NCBI GenBank assembly: GCA_900316855.1 | Contig: ONEK01000001.1 | Coordinates: forward strand, 1-64,000 | DNA: 64,000 nt | Reading direction: 5' to 3' | Source of the DNA: an uncultured Lachnospiraceae bacterium | GTDB taxonomy: Bacteria; Bacillota; Clostridia; Lachnospirales; Lachnospiraceae | Shown here: piece by piece, positions 5,209 to 61,365 of the stretch | How positions within the stretch are numbered: the stretch's first letter is position 1 | How the letters are laid out: every line of letters starts with the position of its first letter | Notes under the pieces: model-generated | What the model saw: the letters and a program-made list of their open reading frames with translations, nothing else | Told to the model about the DNA's origin: nothing | Database searches by the model: none | Position numbers and translations under genes: made by a program

Positions 5209-5338
5209 TGATATTCCTGTTACCATATCCGAATTCAGACTGCGGGACGCAATAGTGCGCATACGGCTTCTTTGTGCATATTGCCGGTCTGGCAGCCCTG
5301 TCAGTCATAAGTCTATCACACAATATTGCGTTTTGCTG

Positions 5339-5344
5339 TATAAT
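5339..5344 (+). promoter_or_regulatory. candidate -10 box of the four-repeat secreted protein
   Basis: TATAAT lies 83 bases upstream of the ATG at 5427, in the AT-richer divergent gap. No convincing -35 is visible at the right distance. Confidence 0.35.
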
Positions 5345-5426
5345 AGCAGGAAGGGTACAGGGTTCGCTTATTCTGATCTTCGTATGGGTTGGAGCTTACA
5401 GGTTCCGTAATACGAAAGGAGATCAG

Positions 5427-6479: not shown

Positions 6480-6555
6480 TGCAGAGACCGGAATATAACA
6501 CAGAAGTTTACAGGAAACGAAGCCTTTCATAAACAGGGCGAGGGAGGAGATTCAC

Positions 6556-7740: not shown

Positions 7741-7745
7741 TTTCC

Positions 7746-11068: not shown

Positions 11069-11117
11069 GGATTTCTCCTGAAATTTTGCGGGACGGTCTT
11101 TCCGGAAGCCCTGCGCC

Positions 11118-12698: not shown

Positions 12699-12809
12699 GG
12701 AATCAGGACTCTCCATTCGATCATGTCAGTTAAAGGGCCGGAAGAGCAGGTCTTCCGTTCCCAGTTTAGCCCACGGAATTTGCCTTGTCTATGCAAAAGA
12801 AAACCACCG

Positions 12810-12818
12810 TGGTAAAAT
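12810..12818 (+). promoter_or_regulatory. extended -10 promoter of the FAD oxidoreductase gene
   Basis: TGGTAAAAT has the TGn extension and a good -10 hexamer. It sits 75 bases before the ATG at 12893, in the divergent gap. No good -35 is seen, which is acceptable for extended -10 promoters. Confidence 0.45.
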
Positions 12819-12892
12819 CAACTAATGCTGTTTGAAAGAGGTAACAACAGCGTGCGGGCACTGTGTTCCGCGTATGAAAGGAACGATTTCGC

Positions 12893-14476
12893 ATGAAAAA
12901 GGCTTTGATTATCGGCGCCGGCCCGGCCGGCCTGACCGCTGCCTATGAGCTGCTGGACAGATCCGGGGACTACGAGGTTACAGTCTTCGAGGAGAGCGAC
13001 AAGTTCGGCGGTATTGCCAGAACCGTGGAGTATAAGGGAAACCGTATGGATATGGGCGGGCACCGTTTCTTCACGAAGGTCCCCGAGGTCAATGCGTGGT
13101 GGGATAAGATGATGCCACGCCAGGGCGCGCCCGCCGCGGACGATATTGCCCTTGGCCGGAACGTTACGCTCAATCCCGGCGGTCCCGATCCCGAGCAGCA
13201 GGACCGCGTCATGCTGCGCAGGAACCGGGTTTCCCGGATTTTCTTTGACCGTAAATTTTATGACTATCCGATCAGCCTGAAGGCACAGACCTTCCGCAAC
13301 ATGGGCTTTGCCAACACCATGAAGGTCGGCTTCTCCTACCTTGCCGCCATGGTTCACAAGAGGCCGGAAAACTCACTCGAGGATTTCTATATCAACCGGT
13401 TCGGCCGCAAGCTGTATTCCATGTTCTTCGAATATTACACGGAAAACCTCTGGGGCAGGCATCCCTCCGAGATCGATCCGTCCTGGGGCGCCCAGCGCGT
13501 CAAGGGTGTGTCCATCTTTGCGGTGCTGAAGAACGCGATCGAGAAGCAGCTCGGCAGGAAAAACCGCAAGGTCGAGACTTCCCTCATCGAGGAGTTCTCC
13601 TATCCGAAGCTGGGTCCGGGTGAGCTGTGGGATGTCACGGCGGACCGGGTCCGCGAGAAGGGTGGAACGATCCTGACGAACGCGAGGGTAACCGGAATCC
13701 GCCGGGGCGCGGACGGCGCCATCGTCGGCGTCACGTATGAGACACCCGGGGGGACGAAGCAGATGGACGGTGACGTCGTCATCTCGTCCATGCCGATCCG
13801 GGACCTTGTAGCCGGCATGAATGACGTGCCTGCGGAGCCCGCACGCATTGCGGCGGGTCTTCCCTACCGCGATTACATGACGGTCGGCGTCCTCATCGAT
13901 CACCTGAACCTGAAGAACGAGACCCCGATGAAGACGGTCGGCAACATCGTTCCGGACAACTGGGTCTACGTACAGGACCGCACGGTAAAGATGGGCCGGT
14001 TCCAGATTTACAACAACTGGTCGCCGTACCTTGTGAAGGACCTGGAGCACACCATCTGGATGGGACTGGAGTATTTCTGCAACGAGGGAGACACCCTCTG
14101 GAGCATGACGGATGACGAGTTTGCAGAGCTCGGCATCTCCGAGATGATCAAACTGAACCTCATCGATTCGCGCAAGAATGTCCTGGACTACCATGTGGAG
14201 CGCGTGAAGAAGGCGTATCCCGCCTATTTCGATACCTACGAGGAGATGGATACGCTGCGCGAGTGGCTCAATACCATCCCGAACCTGTTCTGCGTCGGAC
14301 GAAACGGCCAGCACCGGTACAACAACATCGATCATTCCATGTGCACGTCGTTCGAGGCCGTGAAGGACATCCTGTCCGGCACAGCGGACCGCTCCAATGT
14401 ATGGAACGTCAACACGGAGCAGGAGTATCACGAGGAAGAAAAGACCGGAGACGGGAATACGGCGGAAGTTGACTGA
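12893..14476 (+). CDS. FAD-dependent amine-oxidase/UDP-galactopyranose-mutase-like oxidoreductase
   Basis: 527 aa. The N-terminus has a perfect dinucleotide-binding loop, [16 protein letters not shown], followed by the acidic end of strand 2 (FEES) and by MGGHRFF, as in protoporphyrinogen oxidase, phytoene desaturase and UDP-galactopyranose mutase relatives. WGRHPSEID and WGAQRVKG in the middle are typical of a subgroup often found in polysaccharide loci. The C-terminal [15 protein letters not shown] segment probably closes the FAD site. The substrate is unknown; a nucleotide sugar or a lipid-linked sugar fits the context. AAAGGA stands 11 bases before the ATG. The radical SAM gene follows after 42 bases, so the two may act together. 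Confidence 0.8.
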
Positions 14477-14518
14477 TTCTGCCGCCCGGCTGCGGCATTG
14501 ACGATAAGGGAGTCATCC

Positions 14519-15520
14519 ATGCCGATTACGATAAACAGTTTTCTGGGGAGATTCGGCTACAAGGCGAGACAGTGGTTTCCGAATCTCGCCGCCAACGCGT
14601 ACCTGAAGCTTCAGTTCAAGACAAGACGCAGGGCGCAGGACGCCTACTGCAGATGGTTTCTGGACCAGCCGGAGGCACCGATGCCCCAGGTTGTGAACAT
14701 TGAGACGATCAACCGGTGTAATTCGACGTGCGAGTTCTGCACGGCGAATGTAAACGCGGAGAAGCGCCCCTTATGCAAAATCGACGACGGACTGTACCGC
14801 AGTATTATCGACCAGCTCGCGGACTGGGGCTATGAGGGACACCTTACGCTCTACGGTAACAACGAGCCGCTCCTCGATACGAAGATCGTGGAACGCCATA
14901 AGTACGCGAGGGAAAAGCTTCCGAAGGCGTTCATCTTCATGTCAACGAACGGTCTCATCCTCACCGTGGACAAGGTGAAGGAGATCGCACCCTACATCAA
15001 CCAGCTCATCATCAACAACTATGCGCTGGAATACAGGCTGCACGACAATATTCAGGAGCTGTACGACTACGTGAAGGCACATCCGGACGAATTCCGGGAC
15101 CTGGATATCCAGATCCAGATGCGCTACCTGAAGGAGGTGCTCACGAACCGCGCCGGCTCGGCGCCGAACAAGCAGGATACTCTGAAGGATGCCGTGACGG
15201 AGCCCTGCCTCCTGCCCTTTACCGATGTGTGGATTACGCCGAACGGTAAGGTCGGCCTGTGCTGCTGCGACAACCTTGAGGTCACCGACATGGGAGACCT
15301 CACGAAGACGCCGCTGAAGGAGATCTGGAACGGGGAAAAGCTCCATGATGCCCGTGTGAAGATTGCGGGCGGCCGGCAGAATTACCCGTTCTGCAGGAAA
15401 TGTGATTTTATCGACGCGGGCTTCCGCATGCAGGTCGCGAAGAAGATCCTCGCGGGCGACATCGAGGGTGCCAATCATACCGGCGGCGAGGAGAAGAACT
15501 CCCGTCAGTCACGGGAGTGA
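14519..15520 (+). CDS. radical SAM / SPASM domain protein
   Basis: 333 aa. The radical SAM cluster motif CNSTCEFC supplies Cys67, Cys71 and Cys74 for a 4Fe-4S centre that cleaves S-adenosylmethionine. LTLYGNNEPLLD matches the usual GGEP region. Near the end a SPASM-like set of Cys (CLLPF, GLCCCDN, CRKCDF) should bind one or more extra clusters. Such proteins modify peptides or sugars. No precursor peptide is seen nearby; its position in the glycan locus, 42 bases after the FAD oxidoreductase, makes a sugar substrate plausible, but this is inference. The ATG at 14519 has AAGGGAG upstream; a TTG 21 bases earlier is less likely. Confidence 0.85.
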   Translation: MPITINSFLGRFGYKARQWFPNLAANAYLKLQFKTRRRAQDAYCRWFLDQPEAPMPQVVNIETINRCNSTCEFCTANVNAEKRPLCKIDDGLYRSIIDQLADWGYEGHLTLYGNNEPLLDTKIVERHKYAREKLPKAFIFMSTNGLILTVDKVKEIAPYINQLIINNYALEYRLHDNIQELYDYVKAHPDEFRDLDIQIQMRYLKEVLTNRAGSAPNKQDTLKDAVTEPCLLPFTDVWITPNGKVGLCCCDNLEVTDMGDLTKTPLKEIWNGEKLHDARVKIAGGRQNYPFCRKCDFIDAGFRMQVAKKILAGDIEGANHTGGEEKNSRQSRE

Positions 15521-46597: not shown

Positions 46598-47440
46598 TCA
46601 GAGCAGGCTCCGGGAGGACAGGCGCCGGTACAGGGCGCGGCAAAGCTCGATCACAAGGTAAATGATGAGGATGACGGCTGCGACAAGGAGCGCATAGCCC
46701 GCTCTCCAGGCGCTGCCCATCCGCTCCTGCAGCCACTCGAGGGGCGTTCCGGGGACGGGACGGCTGACGAACAGGTAATTGCAGCCGGTTTTCACATCGA
46801 ACAGCCATGTCGGCGGCACTTCGATGAGGAGGTACACGAACGGGTACCAGATGTGCCGGATTGTCGGGTGCACCCTCCCGGATGCAAGGAGCAGCATCGG
46901 ATAGACAGCGAGAACCGTGTGCCACACGAAGCTGTGAATGGACAGGAAATTCCACAGCGGATAGGCGGACCAGTCGGGAAACAGCAGCGCGCAGAATGAG
47001 CCGGGCATCAGGAGGACGACGCCGATTTCACCGAGCGCCTCCCGGAAGCGTGACTGGCCGATAGTCCGGACGATATGACTGCGCGGCGCGGAAAGGTCAG
47101 CACTCGTTGTGACGATGCGGTCCGTTTCCGGCAGGAAGGCGTGCAGGAGGTAGACGAAGATGGAGAAGCTGCACAGGTGAAGCGGCAGGTAGGCAATGCT
47201 CATCCTGTGGATGGACAGGAGAAAGAGGTCCCGCACGAGATTTCCTGCAAGGAGTAAGACGGCGAGGAGCCGCAGTGTCAGTGCCTGGCTGTGCTGCGAC
47301 AGACGTACGAACCACAGACACAGGAGTGCCATCGCAAGGCAGCAGACTGTCAGCGCGGCAAAGTGCTGTGCTGTGAACAGGCCAAAGCCAATCCCCGCGG
47401 GAAGATCAGATCCCTCCAGCCAGAAATATAGCATGGACAT
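46598..47440 (-). CDS. YwaF/TIGR02206-type integral membrane protein
   Basis: 280 aa with about seven membrane helices. The segments YLPLHLCSFSIF and SIHSFVWHTVLAVYPM match the TIGR02206 (YwaF) family, whose function is unknown. The ATG at 47440 has GGAGG eight bases upstream; a TTG two codons earlier is too close to that site. It stands alone between the GH3 and murD genes. Confidence 0.8.
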   Translation of the reverse strand: MSMLYFWLEGSDLPAGIGFGLFTAQHFAALTVCCLAMALLCLWFVRLSQHSQALTLRLLAVLLLAGNLVRDLFLLSIHRMSIAYLPLHLCSFSIFVYLLHAFLPETDRIVTTSADLSAPRSHIVRTIGQSRFREALGEIGVVLLMPGSFCALLFPDWSAYPLWNFLSIHSFVWHTVLAVYPMLLLASGRVHPTIRHIWYPFVYLLIEVPPTWLFDVKTGCNYLFVSRPVPGTPLEWLQERMGSAWRAGYALLVAAVILIIYLVIELCRALYRRLSSRSLL

Positions 47441-47620
47441 CTTCAACGCCTCCGTCCCGGCCGGACTTACGGCCGCAGTTCCACTATATCACAGTCTGAT
47501 GTGACGATTTTCCTGTAAAGGATGCCATTTCACGGTCATTCAGATCTCCGATGCGGATTCATCTTCTACGGCTGCACCGGAGCTTCGCCTAAAATTTCAC
47601 AACGCGAACGCCGCTTAGTG

Positions 47621-50147: not shown

Positions 50148-51731
50148 ATGATCCGCGGCATCGGTGAGCGATCAGTGATATCGGATGAGGCAAAACAGAA
50201 TAAGGCAATCTTACAGGCGCAGCTCGAAAGCTATGCCGCGAAAGGACTGTATCCGTTCCACATGCCGGGGCACAAGCGAAGGCTCGCTCCGGCGCCGGAC
50301 CTTCCCTATACCTGGGACGTGACCGAGGTTGAGGGACTCGATGATCTGCATCACGCGGACGGAATCCTGCAGCAGGCTATGCGAAGGACTGCGCTTTTGT
50401 GCGGCGCGAGGAGGACGTGGTACCTCGTCGGCGGTTCGACGACGGGGATCCTTGCTGCCGTGCGGGCCGCGGCGCCCGGAGGGAGCGAAATCATTGCTGC
50501 CCGCAACTGCCACAAGTCGGTCTATCACGCCGTGGAGCTGGGAGACCTTGATGTGCACTGGCTGTTCCCGGAGACGGATCCGGACTGGCAGATCAACGGC
50601 AGCATCCGTCCGGAGGATGTGCAGGATGCACTGGAGCAGCATCCGCATGCCGCGGCGGTCATCGTCACCAGCCCGACGTATGAGGGCGTCCTCTCGGATA
50701 TCCGCGGCATAGCCGGTATCTGTCATGCGGCAGGGGTGCCGCTTATCGTCGACGAGGCGCACGGCGCGCATCTGGGACTTTTCCCAGGCACCGTTTTCCC
50801 GGACAGCAGTGTGCACCTTGGCGCGGACATTGTGATTCAGAGCGCGCACAAGACACTGCCGTCCCTCACACAGACAGCGCTCCTTCACTGGAACAGCGCC
50901 CTCATCCCCGAGGAGGAGATTGCGCATCAGCTGGACGTCTTTGAGACAAGCTCGCCTTCCTATCCGCTCCTGGCATCGCTCGATGGCTGCACCGGGATCC
51001 TCACATCTGACGGCAGGGAACTGTTTCAGGACTGGCAGAAGAGGCTTGCGCATTTCCACGAAGCGGCCTTGGCTCTGCGGCACGTTCACGTGCTATGCTA
51101 TGGGAAAGACAGGGCGAAGCCACATCCTGCCATCCATGCGTCTGACCCCGGAAAGCTTCTCGCCCGGGCGGACGGGATGAGAGGCAGGGAGCTTGCGGAC
51201 TGGGTGAGAGAGGACTTCCGGATCGAGACCGAGATGCACTGCGGACGGAATGTCCTGTTCATGACGAGCTGCTGTGATACGGACGAGGGTTTTGAGAGGC
51301 TTATCCGCGCGCTGCGGGAGCTGGACAGGAAGCTGTCGGTTCCCCTGCAGCATCCGTGCGGCGGGAAGCCGGTGCGGGAAGAAGAGGCGGCAGCAGCTGC
51401 CCCGGATTCCGGCAAAGCCCCGGAATCCGGGGGATACTCCGCTGCGATTGGTGCAAAGATCCCGGGCCTGAGGGAGATTACAGGAACAAAGAGGACAGGC
51501 ATCGCGTCTGCCCTCCGGAGCCCTTCTGCGGAGGTTCCGCTTGCCGAGGCCCCCGGCAGAATCAGCGCGGAGTATGTCATGGCCTATCCGCCCGGCATTC
51601 CGATCCTGGTGCCGGGGGAGGAAATCACGGAGGGCAAGGTACAGGAGCTCTTCCGTTTATCCCGGGAGGGAGCGAACCTGATCCGCTCGGGGGGCTCCGG
51701 GACAGGCCGCTGCAGGGTACTGAAATCGTAA
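50148..51731 (+). CDS. PLP-dependent Orn/Lys/Arg decarboxylase family protein
   Basis: 527 aa. The N-terminus has YPFHMPGHKR, the family signature. Cofactor binding: DEAHGAH (Asp202) and Lys235 in SAHKTLPS. The last 50 residues are the small C-terminal domain (PPGIPILVPGE, typical). It lacks the N-terminal wing domain of the large inducible decarboxylases, as in YaaO/SpeA of Bacillus. It decarboxylates arginine, lysine or ornithine; which one cannot be read off. The start is uncertain: ATG at 50148 has no clear site, GTG at 50175 has GGTGAG seven bases upstream. A variable stretch at about 400-450 is Ala/Gly/Pro-rich. The MBOAT gene follows after 35 bases. Confidence 0.85.
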   Translation: MIRGIGERSVISDEAKQNKAILQAQLESYAAKGLYPFHMPGHKRRLAPAPDLPYTWDVTEVEGLDDLHHADGILQQAMRRTALLCGARRTWYLVGGSTTGILAAVRAAAPGGSEIIAARNCHKSVYHAVELGDLDVHWLFPETDPDWQINGSIRPEDVQDALEQHPHAAAVIVTSPTYEGVLSDIRGIAGICHAAGVPLIVDEAHGAHLGLFPGTVFPDSSVHLGADIVIQSAHKTLPSLTQTALLHWNSALIPEEEIAHQLDVFETSSPSYPLLASLDGCTGILTSDGRELFQDWQKRLAHFHEAALALRHVHVLCYGKDRAKPHPAIHASDPGKLLARADGMRGRELADWVREDFRIETEMHCGRNVLFMTSCCDTDEGFERLIRALRELDRKLSVPLQHPCGGKPVREEEAAAAAPDSGKAPESGGYSAAIGAKIPGLREITGTKRTGIASALRSPSAEVPLAEAPGRISAEYVMAYPPGIPILVPGEEITEGKVQELFRLSREGANLIRSGGSGTGRCRVLKS

Positions 51732-51766: not shown

Positions 51767-53209
51767 ATGGTATTTTCTTCCTACAGCTTCATATTGCTGT
51801 TCCTGCCGGTGTGCGTCGCGGGCTTTTACCTTATGAAGACAATCGGCGGGAGCGGGGCGGCGCGGCATCTGTGGGAGCTGTGGCTCCTTGCCCTGTCGGT
51901 GGTTTTCTACGCACTTTTTGGCTGGAAGAATCTGCTGGTCCTTGGCATCAGCCTTGCCTTTAACCTGTGCTTCCTGCTCCTCATGAACCGGAAGAAGGCG
52001 GCGGTGAAGCCGCTCCTTGTCACGGGGGTTCTCGGCAATATCGCGCTGCTGTCGTTTTTTAAATACGGGGGCGGCGTGTTCTTCCCGATCGGCATCAGCT
52101 TCTATACGTTTGCCCAGATTGATCTTCTCGCGGACATGGCGAGGGGGGAGGTCCGGGATTTCAGTGTCCTCGATTACCTGACGTACAGCACGTATTTCCC
52201 GAAAATTCTGCAGGGCCCCATCACCCGCTACAGCGAGGTGACGGAAGCGTTTCATGCCGTGCCTGACAAGCGCTTCGACGCGGAGGAGTTTTACCGCGCC
52301 TGCGTGCTGTTCATTCTCGCACTGGCGAAGAAGGTTCTCATCGCGGACCCTGTCGGCGCCGCGGTGGATTACGCGTACAGCGCGCCTCTTGCCCTGTCGC
52401 GGCCGGACGTGTTCATCGCGGTGCTGCTGTATCCGGTGCAGCTGTACATGGACTTTTCCTCGTGCTGCGAGATGGGAATGGCGGCATCTCAGATGATGGG
52501 CATTCCCCTGCCGGTCAATTTCGACTCCCCGTATCAGACGACAAGCATTCCGGAGTACTGGCGCAGATGGCATATGACGCTGACCAGGTTCTTCACGGAC
52601 AATATCTACATCCCGCTGGGCGGCAGCAGGAAGGGAACGGCGCGCACGTATTTCAATGTCATGATCATCTTCCTCGTCTCCGGGCTCTGGCACGGAACGG
52701 GCTGGACTTTTTTCATCTGGGGGCTGCTGCACGGCGTCTTCTCCGTCATCGTACGCGCTTTCCGGACAGCCAGGAAGCGCCGCGGCTTTGTTCCGGGACA
52801 GGAGTCCCGGGCGGTGCACCGGCTTCTCATTGCGGGCAATTACCTTGTCATCTCGGCGCTCTTTATCCTGTTCCGCTCCGCGTCGCTGCAGGACGCGGGG
52901 ACGATGGTGCATCAGATTATTTGCGGTGACGCGCAGTTTACCGCAGGCTTTGTGAAAAATTTTGGCTGGAAGGAGCTGATCTATGCCCTGAAGTTCACAC
53001 CGTGGGCCTACAGTCCCTACCGGTTTGACCTGTGCATGTGGTTTGTCGTCGTGTGCTCCATGCTCCTCATTTTTGTCTGTCCGGGGGCGGTGCGCATTGC
53101 GAGGAAGGTCCGGATTGCGCCCTTTCCGACGATCCTCCTCGGTATTCTGCTTGCCTGGAGCATCTGCTCGCTTGGCGGTGTGAAGAGCTATATTTATTTC
53201 CAGTTTTAA
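51767..53209 (+). CDS. MBOAT-family O-acyltransferase (AlgI/DltB-like)
   Basis: 480 aa with about ten to twelve membrane helices. FPKILQGPITRY, MDFSSCCEMGMAASQMMGI and YWRRWHMTLTRFF are MBOAT hallmarks, and the catalytic His lies in SGLWHGTGWTF. Such enzymes pass acyl groups across the membrane to a polymer outside the cell. The ribosome site is weak. The stop overlaps the start of the SGNH-like gene (TAATG). With the AMP ligase and carrier protein downstream, the set resembles dltBDAC. Confidence 0.88.
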   Translation: MVFSSYSFILLFLPVCVAGFYLMKTIGGSGAARHLWELWLLALSVVFYALFGWKNLLVLGISLAFNLCFLLLMNRKKAAVKPLLVTGVLGNIALLSFFKYGGGVFFPIGISFYTFAQIDLLADMARGEVRDFSVLDYLTYSTYFPKILQGPITRYSEVTEAFHAVPDKRFDAEEFYRACVLFILALAKKVLIADPVGAAVDYAYSAPLALSRPDVFIAVLLYPVQLYMDFSSCCEMGMAASQMMGIPLPVNFDSPYQTTSIPEYWRRWHMTLTRFFTDNIYIPLGGSRKGTARTYFNVMIIFLVSGLWHGTGWTFFIWGLLHGVFSVIVRAFRTARKRRGFVPGQESRAVHRLLIAGNYLVISALFILFRSASLQDAGTMVHQIICGDAQFTAGFVKNFGWKELIYALKFTPWAYSPYRFDLCMWFVVVCSMLLIFVCPGAVRIARKVRIAPFPTILLGILLAWSICSLGGVKSYIYFQF

Positions 53210-54381
53210 TGTCCGGTACCGCAGAAATGATGAAGAAGGATAACCGCACAACTTCATATGAAGGTCCTCATAAGGCGGGTGACAGTCAGGGGACGGATGC
53301 TGCCGGCAGGAGGAAGGGCCGGACGTTTGCCCCGGGCAGGATGCTGGCCCTGCTGGCGGCGGCTGCGGGTATCCCGCTGCTGGTCTGTGCAGCGCTTGTT
53401 GTGTGGATTGATCCGTTTTTCCACTATCACAGGCCGCTCTCCTGGTTTCCCTATCAGGTTGACCACCAGCTGTCGCAGAATCCGGGTATGGCGCGTCACA
53501 TGGACTACGACAGCATCATCACGGGCTCGTCCATGACCGTCAATTTTGATACGGATGATTTCAGGGACCTCCTGGGCCTCAACGCGCTGAAGCTCTCGTA
53601 CGACGGTGCAACGCCGAAGGATATCTCCAATATCCTTTCCATCGTCTATGATGAGGACAATCCGGAACGGCAGCGGTCGGACGTCCGGCAGGCGTTTATC
53701 GCCATCGACATTCTGTCCTATACCGCGGATCCGGATGAGACGAAATACCCGATTCCGGAATATCTGTACAACCGGAATCCGTTCGATGACGTGAACTACC
53801 TGTTCAATAAGGACGTACTGCTCGACTATATCGTGGCGCCCGCTGCGGGGCATAAGGACCGGACGGACCTCTCGTTCGTCTACGGTATGACGTGGCTGAC
53901 ACCGGATCTTTTGGGCGAGGATTACGTGAAGGCACATTACAGCCCTGCACCGAAGTCCGCGGAACGCGTTCCGGACGACCTTTTCCTTGAGGGGACGGAC
54001 CGGAACCTTAAGACGAATATCCTGCCCTATATCAAGGCACACCCGGAGACGGAGTTTACGTTCTTCTTTCCGCCGGTATCCATCCTGTTCTGGAATGATT
54101 TCGTGAATGAGAACTCACTGGACGCGAGGCTCCTGCAGTGCGAGGATATAGGTGAGACACTGCTGTCCTGCCCGAACGTGAGGGTGTTCTTTTTCATGGA
54201 CGAGAAGGACGTCGTCGAGGACCTGGACTATTACACGGATACGGTACATTTCACGCCGGAGATCAGCACCCGGATGGTGCAGTGCTTCCGGAGCGGACAG
54301 GACGAGGTTTCTGCCGGCGGGATGAAGCGGGTCCTGCAGCATATGCGGGAGCTGGTCATGAACTATCTGTTTGATTCGTGA
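53209..54381 (+). CDS. membrane-anchored SGNH-like protein (DltD/AlgJ-type partner)
   Basis: 390 aa. A basic N-terminus and one membrane helix (about residues 45-66) put the rest outside. GSSMTVNF at about 105-112 looks like the nucleophile motif of DltD/AlgX-type SGNH proteins and YTDTVHFTPE at about 345 supplies the Asp-x-x-His pair. It may accept the acyl group from the MBOAT protein and deliver it to the polymer. The start at 53209 shares one base with the MBOAT stop; a later ATG pair (53227 region) is also possible. The family assignment is by motif and context only. Confidence 0.7.
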   Translation: MSGTAEMMKKDNRTTSYEGPHKAGDSQGTDAAGRRKGRTFAPGRMLALLAAAAGIPLLVCAALVVWIDPFFHYHRPLSWFPYQVDHQLSQNPGMARHMDYDSIITGSSMTVNFDTDDFRDLLGLNALKLSYDGATPKDISNILSIVYDEDNPERQRSDVRQAFIAIDILSYTADPDETKYPIPEYLYNRNPFDDVNYLFNKDVLLDYIVAPAAGHKDRTDLSFVYGMTWLTPDLLGEDYVKAHYSPAPKSAERVPDDLFLEGTDRNLKTNILPYIKAHPETEFTFFFPPVSILFWNDFVNENSLDARLLQCEDIGETLLSCPNVRVFFFMDEKDVVEDLDYYTDTVHFTPEISTRMVQCFRSGQDEVSAGGMKRVLQHMRELVMNYLFDS

Positions 54382-54450
54382 AGCGGGCACTTGCAGGGGC
54401 AGGCTGTCAGGCATGAGGGATTCCTGACGGCAGAAAGGGGGCAGCTCCCG

Positions 54451-55821
54451 ATGAGATTCGATAATTTCTCACAGATGATCGCTTATCACGGCGCGAAAAA
54501 CGCGCAGCGCACTGCAGTCCTATTTGCCGAGCACAACGAGGTTCGTGAGGTGCGGTGGGAGGACTTCGCCAAGGCAGTTGAGCAGAAGGTGCAGAAGCTC
54601 CGGATCATGGACAACAGCTGTGTAGGCCTTTACGCGGATCCTTCACCGGCCTGGATCCTTCACCTGTTTGCGGCGGCGATTGCCGGGAAGCGGGTCGTAC
54701 TGCTGGATCCGGCGCTTCCTCCCGAGGCGGTCGAACCGCTCATGGCGGATACGGGCGTTGACTTCCTGTTCTGTGACCGGCCGGAGCGGCTTCAGAAGCT
54801 CCGCCCCGCTGTGCAGAGAAATCTCCTCGCTTATAAGGAACGGGGAGGGAAGAAGCAGGACGTGGAATGCGCAGGGGAGCTGCTGTTCTATACATCCGGG
54901 ACAACCCGGCAGGGGAAGGCGGTTGTCCTGTCACAGAAGGCACTCTGCAGCAGCTGCTGGAACGGACAGCAGCTCCTGCCTGCGACGAGGCAGGATGTGG
55001 TGCTGTCGCTGCTGCCGCTGAACCATGTCTTCGGCTTCGTCTGCTGTATGCTGTGGCCTCTTTCCCAGGGGGCTGCGGTCGCGATCGGGCGCGGAGCCCG
55101 GTATTACGGGGAGGATCTGATGCTGTTCCGGCCCAGTGTCCTTCCGGTCGTGCCAACATTGCTGAAATATCTGCTGCAGGTTGGCCGCATCAATGAAAAC
55201 CTGCGCGCAATCCTGGTCGGTGCAGGACCGGCACAGGCGGAAATACTGGAAGCCGCGGCGAGGAAGGGCATCGAGGTGCGTTTTGGCTACGGCCTGACGG
55301 AAACAGCCTCCGGTCTTGCCATGTCCGCAAGGGGGGAGGATCCGTTCCTTATGACTCCGTGCCCGGAGGTGCAGCTGCGCGTCGATGAGGAGGGTCAGCT
55401 GTACGTCAGGACAACCTGCATGATGGACGGCTACTATCACCTGCCAGGGGATACCGGCAGGGTCCTTAAGGATGGCGAGCTCGCAACCGGCGATCTCGCG
55501 GAGCAGGAGGAAGACGGCAGGATCCGCATCCTCGGACGTGTCGACGACGTCATCGTCTTTCCGAACGGGCAGAAGGTGTTCTGCCCGGATCTGGAGAAGA
55601 CGCTCGCAAGGAAAATCGGGACGCAGGTTGCCCTTACCGTGCGGGAGGGGCAGCTCACGCTCGTCGCGGTAGGGGATCACAGGATGCTGCAGGAAGCACA
55701 GGACGCGGTGGATGAGGAAAACCGGCACCGTACGCGCGAGCAGCAGATCATAAGGGTTGAGATGCGCGACGAGCCCTTCCCAAGGACGGCGAACGGGAAG
55801 CTGCGAAGGTTTATGATCTGA
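54451..55821 (+). CDS. AMP-forming acyl ligase (DltA-like acyl activation enzyme)
   Basis: 456 aa. Adenylate-forming motifs: YTSGTTRQGKAV (A3), FGYGLTETASGL (A5), DGELATGDLAE (A7), LGRVDDVI (A8) and the C-terminal Lys in ANGKLRRF (A10). It should activate a carboxylic acid with ATP and load it onto the carrier protein encoded next. At about 456 aa it is short, like stand-alone DltA or acyl-ACP ligases. AAAGGGGG stands nine bases before the ATG at 54451; an upstream TTG frame is not supported. Whether it uses D-Ala or a fatty acid cannot be read, but the neighbouring acyl-ACP thioesterase favours a fatty acid. Confidence 0.85.
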   Translation: MRFDNFSQMIAYHGAKNAQRTAVLFAEHNEVREVRWEDFAKAVEQKVQKLRIMDNSCVGLYADPSPAWILHLFAAAIAGKRVVLLDPALPPEAVEPLMADTGVDFLFCDRPERLQKLRPAVQRNLLAYKERGGKKQDVECAGELLFYTSGTTRQGKAVVLSQKALCSSCWNGQQLLPATRQDVVLSLLPLNHVFGFVCCMLWPLSQGAAVAIGRGARYYGEDLMLFRPSVLPVVPTLLKYLLQVGRINENLRAILVGAGPAQAEILEAAARKGIEVRFGYGLTETASGLAMSARGEDPFLMTPCPEVQLRVDEEGQLYVRTTCMMDGYYHLPGDTGRVLKDGELATGDLAEQEEDGRIRILGRVDDVIVFPNGQKVFCPDLEKTLARKIGTQVALTVREGQLTLVAVGDHRMLQEAQDAVDEENRHRTREQQIIRVEMRDEPFPRTANGKLRRFMI

Positions 55822-55904
55822 CTGGAGGTCTTTCCCTGCGCAGAAAGGAACGGAGCAGACCGTGCCTTCAGGAAGCCGATGCGTCCGGCAGAAACGGGGG
55901 AGTT

Positions 55905-56162
55905 ATGAATGATGCGAAGCAGGAAATCCAGGAGAAGCTGACACAGATTCTGACAGAATGCCTGCCGGATCTCGATGCGGACCGGATTCGTCCGGAGTCT
56001 GTCATCAGCCGGGACCTCGGCGTGGATTCCATGAATTTCATCCTGATCATCTGCAGGACGGAGTCCGTGTTCGGCATCCGTATCCCGGAGGATAGCTGGC
56101 AGCAGATCCGGACGGTGCAGGATGCGGTGGACAAAATCGCGGAGCTCCTGCCCGGCAAGTGA
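55905..56162 (+). CDS. acyl carrier protein
   Basis: 85 aa, acidic, four helices. The phosphopantetheine site is Ser42 in LGVDSMNF. It differs from fatty-acid-synthase ACPs (DSL): DSM and the context suggest a dedicated carrier, similar in role to DltC. ACGGGGGAG precedes the ATG. It lies between the AMP ligase and thioesterase genes. Confidence 0.9.
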   Translation: MNDAKQEIQEKLTQILTECLPDLDADRIRPESVISRDLGVDSMNFILIICRTESVFGIRIPEDSWQQIRTVQDAVDKIAELLPGK

Positions 56163-56199
56163 CCGTCCGGAATCATCCGGGATATCCTATCAGTTTTTT

Positions 56200-56943
56200 A
56201 TGGAAACCGAAATCGCTGACAATCTGATTTATCGCAGGGAGCTGTCCCTGACGGCACTGGATGTGGACCGGTATCAGAGGCTTCGCATGAGCGCGCTGTT
56301 CCGGTACCTGCAGCGAAGCGCCGTCATTCATACGACAGAGCTCGGCTGCGGGAAGGACCGGACACTGGAGCGCGGCCTCCTGTGGGTTGTTGCCCGTGTC
56401 CGCATCGAGGTGAACCGGCTCCCGGGGTATGAGGATACGGTGGAGCTGGAATCGCGCCCCGGGGATATGATGCACATTATTTTCCCGAGGCACGTCACGC
56501 TGAAATCCCCGGAGGGGGAGGAATACCTGCGTGCCACGAGTCTGTGGATGCTGGCCGATGCGAAGACGCGCAGGATGGTGTTCCCTGCCCGGTACGGCAT
56601 TGAGATTCCGGGATGCAGGGATGACGCCGCAATCCGGGACCTGCCGGAAATCCGTGAAATCCACCCGCAGAGGGAGATGATCCGGACCGTCCGGTATTCG
56701 GACATCGATATCAACGGCCATGTCAACAATACGCACTATCCGGACTGGCTGGACGACCTGTTCGACGAGGAGTTCCACCGGACGCACTTCTGGAAGAGCC
56801 TGCAGATCAACTACATGAATGAAATACAGGCGGGGAGTGAAGTGCACCTTGGCGTGGAGCAGGCAGGAAACAAGGTTCTGGTTGAGGGAAGGACGGATTC
56901 GCAGGTGCGCTTGCGCATGAGCGCGGAGGCGGCGCCAGTGTGA
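56200..56943 (+). CDS. acyl-ACP thioesterase (FatA/FatB family)
   Basis: 247 aa, a double hot-dog fold. The first repeat starts RRELSLTALDVDRYQRLRMSALF. The second contains VRYSDIDINGHVNNTHYPDW, with the Asn, His and Asp/Glu positions used in catalysis. It releases free fatty acid from acyl-ACP made by fatty-acid synthesis. The start at 56200 lacks a strong site but fits the family. In this operon it could feed the AMP ligase, which would put the acyl group on the dedicated carrier. Confidence 0.88.
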   Translation: METEIADNLIYRRELSLTALDVDRYQRLRMSALFRYLQRSAVIHTTELGCGKDRTLERGLLWVVARVRIEVNRLPGYEDTVELESRPGDMMHIIFPRHVTLKSPEGEEYLRATSLWMLADAKTRRMVFPARYGIEIPGCRDDAAIRDLPEIREIHPQREMIRTVRYSDIDINGHVNNTHYPDWLDDLFDEEFHRTHFWKSLQINYMNEIQAGSEVHLGVEQAGNKVLVEGRTDSQVRLRMSAEAAPV

Positions 56944-57043: not shown

Positions 57044-57733
57044 ATGAGCGACAGAGCATTTGAAATACTGGAGACGAAGGAGCGCATCCTTGCGGACAAT
57101 GATGCGGTAGCACAGACGGTGCGCAGCAGGATGCGTGAGGAAGGGACGTTTTTCATCAATCTGATGTCGTCCCCGGGAGCAGGCAAGACAACGACACTCG
57201 TCCGCACCATTGCCGCCCTGAAGGACCGCTACCGGATCGGTGTGCTGGAAGCGGACGTCGACAGCGACGTCGATGCCAGGACCGTCACGGAAGCCGGCGC
57301 GCGGGCAATCCAGCTGCATACCGGCGGCAGCTGCCATATGGACGCCGATATGACGCTGCGCGGGCTGGACGCCTTCGACACGAAGGACCTTGACATCCTG
57401 TTCCTCGAGAACGTCGGGAACCTTGTCTGCCCGGCGGAATTCGATGTGGGTGCTGACGCGCGCGTCATGATACTGTCCGTTCCGGAGGGAGATGACAAAC
57501 CGCTGAAGTACCCGCTGATGTTCCGTGTGAGCGACTGCCTCCTGATCAACAAGACCGACGTGGAGCCGGTTTTTTCTTTCAGTGAGGAGGCATGTCTTCA
57601 GAGGGCGAGGAAGCTGAATCCGGACATTGCCTTTTTCCCGCTGTCCGCGAAGACGGGGGACGGGTTCGGCGCCTGGATCCGGTGGCTGACGCAGCGCGTG
57701 GAGGCAAAAAGGGAAACCTCTGCTGCGGGATAA
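57044..57733 (+). CDS. hypB: HypB-type GTPase, copy 1
   Basis: 229 aa. The P-loop SSPGAGKTT is at 42-50, G-motifs EADVDSDVD and NKTD follow, and GGSCHMDADM has the Cys-His nickel site of the HypB G domain. HypB delivers nickel to NiFe hydrogenase in a GTP-dependent way. The N-terminal Cys-rich or His-rich extension of some HypB proteins is missing. GGGAGAG precedes the ATG. A second hypB lies 15 bases downstream, and no hypA, hypC-F or hydrogenase genes are in the window. Confidence 0.9.
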   Translation: MSDRAFEILETKERILADNDAVAQTVRSRMREEGTFFINLMSSPGAGKTTTLVRTIAALKDRYRIGVLEADVDSDVDARTVTEAGARAIQLHTGGSCHMDADMTLRGLDAFDTKDLDILFLENVGNLVCPAEFDVGADARVMILSVPEGDDKPLKYPLMFRVSDCLLINKTDVEPVFSFSEEACLQRARKLNPDIAFFPLSAKTGDGFGAWIRWLTQRVEAKRETSAAG

Positions 57734-57748
57734 AGAGGAGAACGATCC

Positions 57749-58432
57749 GTGAAAGTCATTGAATTGAAGGAGTCCGTGACCGCGTCCAATGAGGCGGACG
57801 CGGAACGGCTCAGGGCAAAAATGAAACAGGAGGGCGTCCTCCTTGTGAACGTGATGTCGTCGCCGGGATCCGGCAAGACGACACTCCTGTCCGCGCTGAT
57901 CCGCGACAGCAGGGAAACCAAGCTGAAGATCGGCGTGCTGGAAGCGGATATCGCGTCCGATGTCGACGCCGCCGCCGTGGAGAAGCTGGGTGCGAGATCC
58001 ATCCAGGCACACACGGACGGCATGTGTCATATGGATGCCGGCATGACCGCGCGGGCGCTGGAGGAGATGGGTACGAAGGACCTCGACGTCATCTTCCTCG
58101 AAAACGTGGGAAACCTCATCTGTCCCGCGGAGTTTGATACGGGCTCAGGTCTCAATCTCATGATCCTGTCCGTCCCGGAGGGAGATGACAAGCCGCTGAA
58201 GTATCCGCTGATGTTCGAGACAAGCGATGCGCTCGTCATCACGAAGACGGATGCGATGCCGTATTTCGACTTTGATGCAAAAAGATGCGCGGAACGGGTG
58301 CGGAAGCTGAATCCGGACATCCGGATTTTTCCGGTGTCCGCCGTGACAGGCGATGGCATGCCGGAGCTGGAACACTGGCTTGCGGCAAAGATTTCCGACT
58401 GGCAAACAGGAGCATCTCCGGCGAAGAGGTAA
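57749..58432 (+). CDS. hypB: HypB-type GTPase, copy 2
   Basis: 227 aa, roughly half identical to copy 1. The P-loop SSPGSGKTT, LEADIASDVD and TKTD are in place, and DGMCHMDAGM keeps the Cys-His nickel site. The start is GTG with AGAGGAG upstream; no in-frame ATG is near. Both copies look intact, with all nucleotide motifs, so each could be active, perhaps as a heterodimer, since HypB dimerises over its nickel site. Confidence 0.9.
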   Translation: MKVIELKESVTASNEADAERLRAKMKQEGVLLVNVMSSPGSGKTTLLSALIRDSRETKLKIGVLEADIASDVDAAAVEKLGARSIQAHTDGMCHMDAGMTARALEEMGTKDLDVIFLENVGNLICPAEFDTGSGLNLMILSVPEGDDKPLKYPLMFETSDALVITKTDAMPYFDFDAKRCAERVRKLNPDIRIFPVSAVTGDGMPELEHWLAAKISDWQTGASPAKR

Positions 58433-58479: not shown

Positions 58480-59583
58480 TCAGGAGCCGGGTTCAGATTG
58501 ATCTCCGACAGATGCCTGTACCTCTTCCAGATAGGCTTCCGCGACCTTCGTGCGGTCGAATTCGCGCTCCATTTTCGCGCGGCCCCTCCGGCCCATGGCG
58601 GCGCGCTCCGAAACAGTCAGGGACAGGAACCTTTTCAGCGCTTCCGTGAGAGATGACGCGGACTGTGCTTCAAACGTAAAGCCTGTCACACCGCTGTCGA
58701 CGATCTCCCGGCAGCCGCTGATGCCGGACGCAAGTACCGGCCTTGCGCAGGCGGAAGCCTCCATGAGGACATTGGACATACCCTCGTGATATGTCGGCAT
58801 GACGACCGCGGAGCAGTCCCGGTACAGCTCGCGCATATCGGGGTGAAAGCCCAGCTGGGTGATCACACCTTCCTTCTCCTTCTCATCCAGGACCTGCTGC
58901 CAGTCCTCGTCGCAGTATCCCGCAAGGGTGAAGCGGACCTTGTCACTGTGCAGCGCTTCCGCCGCCTCCAGCAGCTCCCGGATGCCCTTCTCGCGCATGA
59001 CGCGGCCGACGTACATGAAGTTCACCTCGTCGTGACAGGGATACTCCATCGGCTGCCAGGTCGTAAGGTCCACACCGCTTCCGGATACGAGACGCGTCTT
59101 TCCGGACACGAGGCGCTCCCTCTGAAACAGCGCAAGATTCTCCGCATTCTGGAAGAAGACACACGAAGCCTTCTTTAATCCCCTCCGATACAGAAATTCC
59201 ACAAGGCGCAGCAGCATTCCCTGCTTCTCAAAGGCGGACCCGAGGCCTGTCACGGTCGCGATATACGGGATGCCAAGGCGGGTGCAGACAAATCCTCCGT
59301 AGACGTTCGGCTTGATGGTGTAGGTCAGGACGAGGTCCGGCTTCCAGGACCGGAGGAGCCTCCGGTAATCCCGCAGGAGCTTTATGTCCTCGCGCGGATT
59401 GACGCCGCGGCGGTTGATGGGAGTGTGAAACACCTTCACACCCTCGTTCTCCAGAAGGCTGGTTTTTACGGTATCAGGAAGACTTGCCGCCACCTCGTAG
59501 TGCTGCAGCAGCCGCAGGAGAAACGCGTTGCGGAAATCATAGAGTCCGCCCGAGGAATTTGCGAGGATGAGAATCCGTTTCAA
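58480..59583 (-). CDS. GT4-family glycosyltransferase (CapM-like)
   Basis: 367 aa, GT-B fold. The N-terminal domain has IKPNVYGGFVCTRLGIPYIATVTGLG. The C-terminal domain holds VGRVMREKGIREL, PTYHEGMSNVLMEA and SGCREIVDSGVTGF, the donor-site EX7E region. It should add a sugar to a lipid-linked acceptor in the cytoplasm. The start is TTG and overlaps the ATP-grasp stop (TTGA) with GAGGAG before it. Last gene of a three-gene minus-strand unit. Confidence 0.88.
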   Translation of the reverse strand: MKRILILANSSGGLYDFRNAFLLRLLQHYEVAASLPDTVKTSLLENEGVKVFHTPINRRGVNPREDIKLLRDYRRLLRSWKPDLVLTYTIKPNVYGGFVCTRLGIPYIATVTGLGSAFEKQGMLLRLVEFLYRRGLKKASCVFFQNAENLALFQRERLVSGKTRLVSGSGVDLTTWQPMEYPCHDEVNFMYVGRVMREKGIRELLEAAEALHSDKVRFTLAGYCDEDWQQVLDEKEKEGVITQLGFHPDMRELYRDCSAVVMPTYHEGMSNVLMEASACARPVLASGISGCREIVDSGVTGFTFEAQSASSLTEALKRFLSLTVSERAAMGRRGRAKMEREFDRTKVAEAYLEEVQASVGDQSEPGS

Positions 59584-60596
59584 TGGACCAGCTCCTCCTT
59601 CTTCCGAATCGCCGTTTCGTTGTATTTCATCATATAGATGCCCGTCTCGTAGGAGCCGATCGCGGGAGTGCCTGCCCTGCCCTCGAGGTTTTCAATGACA
59701 CGGGCGGGGAAGTTGACGCCGCAGGCATAGGCGTGCGGATAGCCGCCGCCGAATCGCGGATTGATCTCGGACAGGTACCAGGTGCCTTCCGGATTGTTGA
59801 TCCGGTCGTCTTCGGTCTTCTCCTCGTCATGGAAGAGGTCCATGTCGATCATTCCGGCAAAGCCGAGGCTCTCCGCGAATGCCGCGATCTGGCCAAGCAG
59901 CTCCTGGTCCTTCACGGAGACTGCCTTGTCCGTTTCCCCGGCACGCATCTTGATCTTCTTTTTGAGGAAGATGTCGGTCACCTTATGGGACAGGAGATCC
60001 ACATATACGTCACATCCGTATTCCTGGCCGCGCATCAGCTCCTGGATCATGAGGTCGGGCTCGTCCGCCTTCAGCGCGCGGAGCATCTGCCCGTCTCTGA
60101 CCTCTGTGATATGGATGGAGGCGCTGCCGCCCTGCGGCTTGACAAAGACCGGGAATGAAACAGCTCCCGCATTCATGTCCTGCAGGAATGCATCGGGATC
60201 CATCCAGCACTTCTGCGTGGGAATGCCCATGGACAGCAGGCGCTGGTACATCTGGTATTTGTTCAGTGTGAGCTCGCACAGCTCGTACGAGGACACGACG
60301 GGCGTTACCCCGATTGCTGTGAAACGGTCGCGGTTCTTGGCAATGAGCGAGAGCTCGGGATCGATGAGCGAGAAGAGGCCGGTGATATGCTCCTTTCGGC
60401 AGATGTCCAGAATGCGGTCCAGGTAGTCAGGCGCATCAATGCGCGGGACGATATAGGCAGCGTCCGCGTCATACAGCGCCGGTGCGACGCTGGATGCGTC
60501 CGTTGCGACAACCCTCCCCCTGCCTGCAAGTTCCTTCTTAAATGCGCGGACGACGAGATCCCTCGTGCCGGCGGATAAAATCAGTATATTTGTCAT
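59580..60596 (-). CDS. ATP-grasp protein (carbamoyl-phosphate-synthase-large-chain-like)
   Basis: 338 aa. An N-terminal pre-ATP-grasp domain (residues 1-105) is followed by the ATP-grasp fold: VFVKPQGGSASI with the ATP-binding Lys, IQELMRGQEYGCDVY, and the metal-ligand segment LSEINPRFGGGYPHA. It joins a carboxylate to an amine or thiol at ATP cost. In glycan operons such enzymes often add amino acids or modify a sugar; the substrate is not readable here. Its stop overlaps the TTG start of the GT4 gene. Confidence 0.82.
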   Translation of the reverse strand: MTNILILSAGTRDLVVRAFKKELAGRGRVVATDASSVAPALYDADAAYIVPRIDAPDYLDRILDICRKEHITGLFSLIDPELSLIAKNRDRFTAIGVTPVVSSYELCELTLNKYQMYQRLLSMGIPTQKCWMDPDAFLQDMNAGAVSFPVFVKPQGGSASIHITEVRDGQMLRALKADEPDLMIQELMRGQEYGCDVYVDLLSHKVTDIFLKKKIKMRAGETDKAVSVKDQELLGQIAAFAESLGFAGMIDMDLFHDEEKTEDDRINNPEGTWYLSEINPRFGGGYPHAYACGVNFPARVIENLEGRAGTPAIGSYETGIYMMKYNETAIRKKEELVH

Positions 60597-60699
60597 GAAT
60601 ACACCTCATCAGCTGATGATGTAAAGACCACTCCACTCCTGCCGATGACTGCACGGATCCGGAACGGTTACAGCGTTTCAACTTTATTCTTTTTACTTT

Positions 60700-61365
60700 T
60701 CACAGATACGGTTCGATTTTCCGGATGGGCTTCATGCCCTGCTGCTTCCGGTAGAGATCGAAATCAATGGTTGTCTGCTCCGTGCCGGAGAGGACGTCCG
60801 AGTGATGGACGACCTTGCCGACCGTAGCCTTCACAATGCGCCAGTCCATAGAAAAGCTGACGTTCCGGACGTATTCCAGGTCATAGCGGAAGCGCTGCTC
60901 CCAGCCGATGGTATTGCGCCCATTGACCTGCGCAAGCCCCGTGAGGCCGGGGCGGATGTCGTGACGGTGCATCTCCTCCTCCGTGTAATAGGGGAGATAT
61001 TTGACGAGGAGCGGGCGCGGGCCGACGATGCTCATGTCTCCGCGCAGAATGTTGAGAAACTCCGGCAGTTCATCGAGGCTGGTGCTGCGCAGGATCCGCC
61101 CGAAGTGCGTAAGCCTCTCCTCATCCGGCAGCAGATTTCCCTGCGCGTCCTTTGCGTCCGTCATGGAGCGGAACTTCAGCAGGCGGAAGACCTTTCCGTT
61201 CCTGCCGGGGCGGTCCTGATGAAAGAAAACGGGACTCCCCAGCTTCACACGTACCAGAATCATCAATACGACAAAAACCGGGCTGATGAGAATCAGCCCG
61301 ACAAGGGACAGGGTAAAATCCAGAATGCGTTTCCCGACATTGCGGTAAAATTTATGATCGCTCAT
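60700..61365 (-). CDS. initiating sugar-phosphate transferase (PglC/WcaJ-type)
   Basis: 221 aa. One N-terminal hydrophobic segment (about 15-40, probably a re-entrant helix) is followed by the catalytic core with KFRSM, STSLDELPEFLNIL, MSIVGPRP and RPGLTGLAQ. It transfers a sugar-1-phosphate to undecaprenyl phosphate, the first step of a lipid-linked glycan. It leads the operon with the ATP-grasp and GT4 genes, 103 bases upstream of them. A polymerase and flippase are not adjacent; the ABC flippase at 18.4 kb may or may not serve it. Confidence 0.9.
   Translation of the reverse strand: MSDHKFYRNVGKRILDFTLSLVGLILISPVFVVLMILVRVKLGSPVFFHQDRPGRNGKVFRLLKFRSMTDAKDAQGNLLPDEERLTHFGRILRSTSLDELPEFLNILRGDMSIVGPRPLLVKYLPYYTEEEMHRHDIRPGLTGLAQVNGRNTIGWEQRFRYDLEYVRNVSFSMDWRIVKATVGKVVHHSDVLSGTEQTTIDFDLYRKQQGMKPIRKIEPYL

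Follow-up and report, generated by a model that had tools for sequence, protein, structure and literature searches.

A probable fatty-acid loading-and-release trio adjoining a probably separate surface-polymer O-acyltransferase in an uncultured Lachnospiraceae bacterium

Gene content of the locus

The window, the whole 64,000-nucleotide stretch of contig ONEK01000001.1 that was analysed, carries five genes in a row on one strand, overlapping or closely spaced, at the positions that a sequence-only reading had given. The roles it had assigned to them (MBOAT, SGNH-like protein, AMP ligase, carrier and thioesterase) are borne out by domain models and motifs (Table 1). The MBOAT and SGNH-like genes overlap, and the spacing is 69 bp from the SGNH-like gene to the ligase, 83 bp from the ligase to the ACP and 37 bp from the ACP to the thioesterase. 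The SGNH-like reading frame opens at 53032, with its likely start at the ATG that overlaps the MBOAT stop; for the ligase, the listed ATG lies downstream of a GGGGG run and is likelier than TTG 54391. Ligase, ACP and thioesterase have intact motifs, and GC content is uniform at the locus, favouring neither an insertion nor its absence. The gene groups labelled A and B in Table 1 lie close together and in the same direction in the window, an arrangement that counts against reading them as two modules.

Table 1 Features of the locus, with window coordinates and the evidence for each assignment
Feature	Module	Position	Strand	Evidence
Orn/Lys/Arg-decarboxylase-like PLP enzyme	flank	50148..51731	+	PF01276, E 3e-48
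MBOAT O-acyltransferase	A	51767..53209	+	PF03062, E 1e-31; DltB structures 8jem/6bug, E 2e-30
SGNH-like membrane-anchored protein	A	53209..54381	+	conserved Ser, Asp, His; start from TAATG
AMP-forming acyl ligase	B	54451..55821	+	PF00501, E 2e-44; MenE/acyl-CoA ligase models; motifs
Dedicated ACP	B	55905..56162	+	PF00550; conserved Ser in VDSMNF
FatA/B-type acyl-ACP thioesterase	B	about 56200..56943	+	PF01643 and PF20791 above cut-off; DINGHVNN
HypB-type GTPase 1		57044..57733	+	TIGR00073 over cut-off; synteny
HypB-type GTPase 2		57749..58432	+	TIGR00073 over cut-off; synteny with L200, L221

The earlier view of the ligase as acyl type and not D-alanine type held up, as MenE and acyl-CoA ligases were its best models and the amino-acid adenylation model, whose cut-off is 317 bits, gave it only 97. 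A D-alanine-type ligase, named beforehand among the grounds for dropping the sequence-only reading, was thus not found. His192 of the ligase was invariant in 11 of 11 sequences. The structure model (pLDDT 92) has the ANL fold, and its fold matches were acyl, aryl and amino-acid ligases, including a DltA, all within about 3 Z units, so that the substrate is not settled by the fold. By inspection, and relying on what we take to be the A4 motif, the amino-binding Asp appears replaced in the ligase (LPLNHVFG vs APFDFDVS); this comparison does not come from the MAFFT alignment, which has a gap at A4 between the ligase and the amino-acid A-domain of a separate locus in the same genome (G000:C29). 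For the ACP, FAS-type ACP models led, though below cut-off, and no DltC model was among the matches.

Neighbours of the ligase, ACP and thioesterase

Among the best 80 of at least 525 confirmed ligase relatives, an ACP was adjacent in 72 and a thioesterase in 72, and an SGNH gene was near the ligase in none. A homologue of polyunsaturated fatty acid isomerase (PAI), an enzyme that moves double bonds within such acids, was near the ligase in at least 67 of these 80 loci, mostly in divergent orientation and assigned to the 2b9w family (E 2e-143), with a CrtI-like gene in at least 52 and an Fe-S reductase in at least 49; these three counts are lower bounds because many of the loci end at contig ends, and several of the 80 (e.g. 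L162, L166, L167, L168 and L233) apparently duplicate genus-genome records. Within the genus, 21 other genomes carry the ligase, accompanied by an ACP in 17, a thioesterase in 16 and a PAI on the same contig in 16, and in none of the 21 is an MBOAT or SGNH gene beside it. Genus-wide, the ligase was present in 17/17 genomes with a close PAI, compared with 5/45 of the remaining genomes.

The genes flanking the five were also compared among the ligase loci. The order MscL, PLP decarboxylase, ligase was found in L136, L137, L167 and L168, the first two of which are from close relatives; in the window, the MBOAT-SGNH pair sits between the decarboxylase and the ligase, which are direct neighbours in L136 and L137. 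On the other side, a HypB-type gene follows the thioesterase in L200, L221 and L229, as in the window, and the complete order ligase, ACP, thioesterase, HypB, HypB recurs in L200 and L221. Synteny supports the decarboxylase and the HypB pair better than it does the MBOAT-SGNH pair.

At the window locus there are no PAI, CrtI-like or Fe-S reductase genes. In the window genome, PAI gave no match at E 1e-5 in a search run without a positive control alongside (a similar PAI query gave matches in 20 of 62 genus genomes), the CrtI-like search gave a single match of 56 residues, and the search for IsrA-type domains gave partial matches only, in frames of 478 and 518 aa. With no PAI detected and only the short CrtI-like match, the trio, though intact, would have to act without the redox arm, which also weighs against a two-module reading.

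Trees were quick FastTree runs, built only from ligase ORFs of more than 380 aa and thioesterase ORFs of more than 200 aa. In them the closest company of the window ligase is a group of ligases lacking an adjacent ACP, thioesterase or PAI, and these tree neighbours count against a two-module reading of the locus.

The lack of an adjacent PAI in the window's ligase clade (L134-L137), together with the failure to detect one in the window genome, fits an explanation in which the trio is an acyl-ACP synthetase and thioesterase for fatty-acid salvage or buffering with no double-bond role, it lies near PAI because free fatty acids induce both, and the MBOAT-SGNH pair has no link to either. We judge this to be decidedly improbable, given the tight and repeated divergent layout with PAI, CrtI-like and Fe-S reductase genes in the best 80 loci and the genus-wide co-occurrence of ligase and close PAI.

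The MBOAT-SGNH pair and the question of a Dlt system

The MBOAT has His269 and the conserved His309, the latter within WHG, and carries at its C-terminus, fused to the same protein, the shuttle motif YIYFQF, in which the first residue is Tyr and not Phe. In the available portion of PMC12148441, a fused C-terminal shuttle is described for acyl-CoA-using MBOATs without a carrier, and in Dlt the shuttle Tyr is carried by a separate microprotein, DltX. Among solved structures, DltB alone is clearly related to the window MBOAT. The DltB model scored 140.5 bits on it against a cut-off of 375. In the HMMER alignment of the two proteins, a gap spans most of HC, the DltC-docking helix (DltB contact residues for DltC taken from the accessible part of PMC11035591).

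For the SGNH-like protein there was no Pfam or NCBIfam match, comparison with solved structures by single sequence and then by profile matched nothing meaningful, and an AlphaFold model from the single sequence had a pLDDT of only 41. All 21 sequences in the alignment nevertheless share its Ser102, Asp338 and His341 (GSS and DxxH), with residue numbers and alignment counted from 53227 and not from the likely start.

The DltD family (PF04914) had no match in the window genome, while Bacillus subtilis and Lactococcus lactis controls were positive, and the DltA model matched only the C29 protein, below cut-off. A true dltABCD elsewhere in the genome, which had been proposed as a check, was accordingly not found as a classical operon. 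A Dlt system loading D-alanine or another amino acid would explain why the order of roles is that of DltB, D, A and C and why DltB is the one solved protein clearly related to the MBOAT, yet it is extremely unlikely: the ligase falls well under the amino-acid adenylation cut-off and has the invariant His192, the ACP is FAS-type, and locus C29 already provides an amino-acid A-domain, a carrier, an MBOAT and an SGNH protein. A D-alanine operon was rejected on the acyl-type ligase, the fused shuttle and the lack of PF04914 and of a DltC-docking helix.

Loci with an MBOAT-SGNH pair were also collected, 34 in all, comprising 31 from 29 genomes (drawn from the 47 others in which SGNH gave a match) and 3 from the window's own genome. 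Within 13-14 kb of the pair, no ligase, ACP or thioesterase gene was present in any of the 34, and LicD and IspD-like genes accompanied the pair in 8. All five genes together were thus found in 0/21 other genus genomes, 0/80 best ligase relatives and 0/34 MBOAT-SGNH loci. The thioesterase is conserved with the ligase and ACP but not with the MBOAT-SGNH pair, so that its expected conservation in the cluster was confirmed for one half only. The proposal of a single Dlt-like system was not supported, as the halves are apart in every other locus examined, the MBOAT combines a fused Tyr shuttle with no counterpart of the DltC-docking helix, and the trio usually stands next to a fatty-acid isomerase/reductase set.

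The core motif of the window MBOAT is YMDFSSCCEM, compared with YFDFS[GA]Y[CS]D in 23/23 orthologues. Tyr253 of DltB, part of an aromatic pocket near the active His in the portion of PMC11035591 available, corresponds to Cys233 in the window MBOAT when the register is set by eye on the HMMER alignment, and this replacement would enlarge the pocket. The altered motif could mean a new acyl donor, and it could also be drift. It is one point for a change of partner, a recast version of the mechanism proposed from sequence alone, in which the trio, having lost its isomerase/reductase arm, would feed fatty acyl-ACP to the MBOAT, from which the acyl group would go to the Tyr peptide, the SGNH protein and a surface polymer. 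The adjacency of the modules on one strand and the intact trio in a genome with no PAI detected are consistent with such a change, but it would be confined to a single genome among all the ligase and MBOAT-SGNH loci compared, and the missing docking helix and a shuttle fused as in acyl-CoA users argue against it; we consider it unlikely. The YMDFSSCCEM pattern of the MBOAT is the one residue pattern through which the fatty-acylation idea stays alive.

Proposed roles and comparison with known systems

We think it probable, with some reservation, that the locus is a fatty-acid loading-and-release trio adjoining an independent surface-polymer O-acyltransferase. Gene content, motifs, synteny and the lack of a detectable isomerase gene were observed, whereas we infer the substrates, the acyl donor, the history of the locus and the functional independence of the modules. 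Module A would O-acylate a surface polymer in the manner of PatA/PatB. The MBOAT would accept a small acyl group, which is probably acetyl supplied by CoA, and hold it on the Tyr of the YIYFQF peptide at its C-terminus; the SGNH protein would then transfer the group to a polymer outside, either a polysaccharide or one resembling teichoic acid. In module B, the ligase would charge the ACP with a free fatty acid for later release, probably in the service of fatty-acid isomerisation or hydrogenation, given that its neighbours in rumen and gut Clostridia are a PAI homologue, a flavoenzyme of the CrtI-like type and an Fe-S flavin reductase.

A broader suggestion, which we put forward tentatively, is that Clostridia of the gut and rumen keep unsaturated fatty acids attached to a dedicated carrier protein while processing them. 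By such a route, the ligase would load the ACP with a polyunsaturated fatty acid taken up in free form, double bonds would be moved or reduced by the PAI homologue together with the CrtI-like and Fe-S enzymes, and the thioesterase would free the product; the window would then represent a lineage in which the loading-and-release half outlasted the redox half and sits beside a surface-polymer acyltransferase. The conserved ligase-ACP-thioesterase set next to PAI makes this carrier-bound route open to direct test. In the open-licence literature we found no description of a trio-PAI module or of the gene surroundings of PAI homologues in Clostridia, which is weak evidence. In the rumen, formation of trans-10 isomers from linoleic acid has been linked to low milk fat (PMC10019597, in excerpt), and gut bacterial fatty-acid isomers affect host immunity (PMC11271093, in excerpt).

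Comparison of loci separates a tempting "new Dlt" from the reading that the evidence backs. With Dlt (DltABCD and DltX), the window shares a cluster of MBOAT, SGNH-like protein, AMP ligase and carrier, and differs in its acyl-type ligase, FAS-type ACP and extra thioesterase, in having neither a DltD family match nor a DltC-docking helix, and in a shuttle that is fused to the MBOAT, unlike the separate DltX of PMC12148441 as far as the available text describes it. PatA/PatB and other MBOAT-SGNH envelope acyltransferases, as covered in that same portion, are alike in the MBOAT plus SGNH gene, the conserved His and an FxYxxF-like peptide that forms part of the MBOAT at its C-terminus; the window differs in a core motif that departs from its orthologues and in the adjoining trio. 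Loci with PAI (PDB 2b9w) in Clostridia from rumen and gut have the orthologous trio, some with HypB genes after it, and differ from the window locus in having genes for PAI, a CrtI-like protein and an Fe-S reductase, which apart from the short CrtI-like match were not detected in the window genome either. In the isoprene reductase operon of Acetobacterium wieringae, HypB-type genes stand beside a large FAD/Fe-S C=C oxidoreductase (available portion of PMC10134865), and similar domain content, the sole basis of this comparison, is found near PAI in L221 and L160.

Gene neighbourhoods of the ligase, ACP and thioesterase

The five genes that the sequence-only reading placed in a row on one strand lie at those positions, none with an internal stop, and catalytic motifs are kept in the window ligase, ACP and thioesterase. 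We read them as probably two independent modules, an MBOAT-SGNH pair and a ligase-ACP-thioesterase trio. Contig C13 of the window genome encodes another thioesterase (28% identity to that of the window), and a search of 60 relatives with the window thioesterase gave clearly closer copies (35-41% identity) in eight genus members, adjoining an ACP in all eight; a ligase is also adjacent in short loci in six, and longer stretches reveal the ligase in the remaining two.

The ligase is present in 22 of 62 genus genomes, and all 22 loci, the window among them, were inspected. Among the other 21, ACP adjoins the ligase in 17, thioesterase accompanies it in 16 (one locus ends at a contig edge), and a polyunsaturated fatty acid isomerase (PAI) homologue, whose representative matches PDB 2b9w (E 2e-143), lies divergent on the same contig in 16, usually followed by genes for a CrtI-like flavoenzyme and for an Fe-S reductase resembling PaaE; MBOAT or SGNH is adjacent to the ligase in none. 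The ligase occurs in 17/17 genus genomes with a close PAI, compared with 5/45 of the remainder, and four genomes (G439, G036, G441, G436) have it without adjacent ACP, thioesterase or PAI. Several genus members carry, between ligase and ACP, a protein without a Pfam match and with a lipoprotein-like N-terminus (Table). A second kind of PAI homologue, about 50-55% identical, adjoins a large Fe-S/FAD protein at loci L158, L159 and L160, where the trio is absent.

In a ligase-profile scan of named genomes, the best 80 of 525 relatives, mostly from rumen and gut Clostridia, were counted as loci. Near the ligase in these 80 were ACP (72), thioesterase (72), PAI (at least 67), CrtI-like protein (at least 52), Fe-S reductase (at least 49), PLP decarboxylase (2), MBOAT (2, both on the opposite strand) and SGNH (0); HypB occurred in nine, seven within 6 kb. 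The median ligase-to-ACP gap was -4 bp, compared with 83 bp in the window, indicating that these genes are usually coupled. Our search of open-licence papers found no description of the trio beside PAI. PAI genes are reported from rumen assemblies of Lachnospiraceae and Oscillospiraceae, one correlating with trans-10, cis-12 C18:2 (PMC10019597); the available text of that paper gave no gene neighbourhood for them.

Table. Coordinates of features in the window and in compared loci
Feature	Location	Strand	Remark
MBOAT	window 51767-53209	+	
SGNH-like protein	window 53209-54381	+	
Ligase	window 54451-55821	+	
ACP	window 55905-56162	+	
Thioesterase	window 56200-56943	+	
Two tandem HypB-type GTPases	window 57044-58432	+	after thioesterase
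Glycosyltransferase, PylC-like ATP-grasp protein, bacterial sugar transferase	window 58480-61365	-	probable edge of polysaccharide locus
TMEM164-family membrane protein	window 46598-47446	-	PF14808, E 4e-36
~430 aa protein between ligase and ACP	L038:1619-2902; L039:10052-11335; L142:5542-6825		
Large Fer4/Fer4_20/Pyr_redox_2 proteins adjoining PAI	L221:2212-5148; L160:8694-11507; L032:1-2069		937-978 aa where complete
LysA-like PLP enzyme, carrier, amino-acid A-domain, then convergent SGNH-like protein and MBOAT, then choloylglycine (bile salt) hydrolase	L042 (G000:C29:52000-67864) 4414-14552		

The MBOAT-SGNH pair

A family search with the window SGNH-like protein gave no match; in an alignment of 21 sequences its Ser, Asp and His do not vary. 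The MBOAT and SGNH genes overlap at TAATG, which suggests translation as a pair. With the SGNH protein as query, matches were found in 48 of 392 genomes of the order, its own counted, and 34 loci were compared (31 from 29 of the 47 other genomes, plus three paralogous own-genome loci). An MBOAT gene is near SGNH in all 34, mostly adjacent, and none of them gave a ligase, ACP or thioesterase hit (E 1e-3) in the 13-14 kb taken per locus. LicD-like and IspD-like cytidylyltransferase genes accompany eight pairs, companions that point to a role in surface polymers. Five pairs occur in the 2.7 Mb window genome, on contigs C36 (the window and 91987-92982), C26, C24 and C29, a number suggesting that surface polymers are acylated in several distinct ways.

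At its C-terminus the window MBOAT carries YIYFQF, a type of motif shared by the C-termini of its 23 closest orthologues. The available text of PMC12148441 describes fused-motif MBOATs as lacking a carrier protein and DltX and as evidently acyl-CoA users, shown for PatA. DltC is described as docking onto DltB helix HC via M302, V305, I306 and M309 (PMC11035591, available text); the HMMER alignment places a gap across most of this helix in the window MBOAT.

Synteny and a possible exchange of partners

Locus L136 reads MscL-PLP decarboxylase-ligase, L137 MurD-MscL-PLP decarboxylase-ligase, and L200 and L221 ligase-ACP-thioesterase-HypB-HypB, while the window reads MurD-MntP-MscL-decarboxylase-[MBOAT-SGNH]-ligase-ACP-thioesterase-HypB-HypB. 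These orders leave MBOAT-SGNH as the window piece without synteny support, and from them we infer that the pair was probably inserted between decarboxylase and ligase; GC content carries no mark of such an insert at the locus. In quick trees, the window thioesterase stands beside the clade of L138, L139, L177-L179, L190, L225 and L233 (support 0.81). The ligase of the window clusters with those of L134-L137, which lack the trio (0.91), close to this clade (0.99).

The closeness and shared direction of the two modules count against their independence and favour a rival reading, in which the trio, having lost its redox arm, feeds fatty acyl-ACP to the window MBOAT. In the window genome PAI was not detected (E 1e-5), CrtI-like protein had no long match, and the 978 aa Fe-S/FAD protein found near some PAI genes had partial matches only, yet the trio is intact. 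The core motif YFDFS[GA]Y[CS]D occurs in 23/23 MBOAT orthologues, and the window MBOAT alone differs (YMDFSSCCEM). By-eye register with the HMMER alignment sets its Cys233 opposite DltB Tyr253, described as part of an aromatic pocket near the active His (PMC11035591, available text), a change that would enlarge the pocket and suit a larger acyl group. Because of the adjacency, the trio without a detected redox arm and the motif and pocket change, we retain this supply route as an unlikely alternative to independent modules.

Comparison with known systems

The HypB gene overlaps that of the thioesterase in L200 and L221. HypA/HypB are linked to an FAD/Fe-S isoprene reductase in the available text of PMC10134865, and by analogy the HypB pair may be linked to nickel-dependent reduction of C=C bonds, the kind of reaction proposed for that enzyme. 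The large PAI-adjacent proteins resemble the isoprene reductase, as described there, in domain content, the sole level compared.

The five genes had been likened to a Dlt system, a likeness that fails on each defining part: the ligase and carrier are not of Dlt type, the SGNH partner falls outside the DltD family, the MBOAT is without most of the DltC-docking helix, and the shuttle motif is fused to the MBOAT. Together these make a Dlt system at this locus very unlikely. Contig C29 of the same genome groups an amino-acid A-domain and a carrier with an MBOAT and an SGNH-like protein that are both encoded on the opposite strand (L042); the A-domain matches the DltA model below cut-off and the MBOAT ends in FLYANF. 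L042 is thus a better candidate for a Dlt-like locus than the window.
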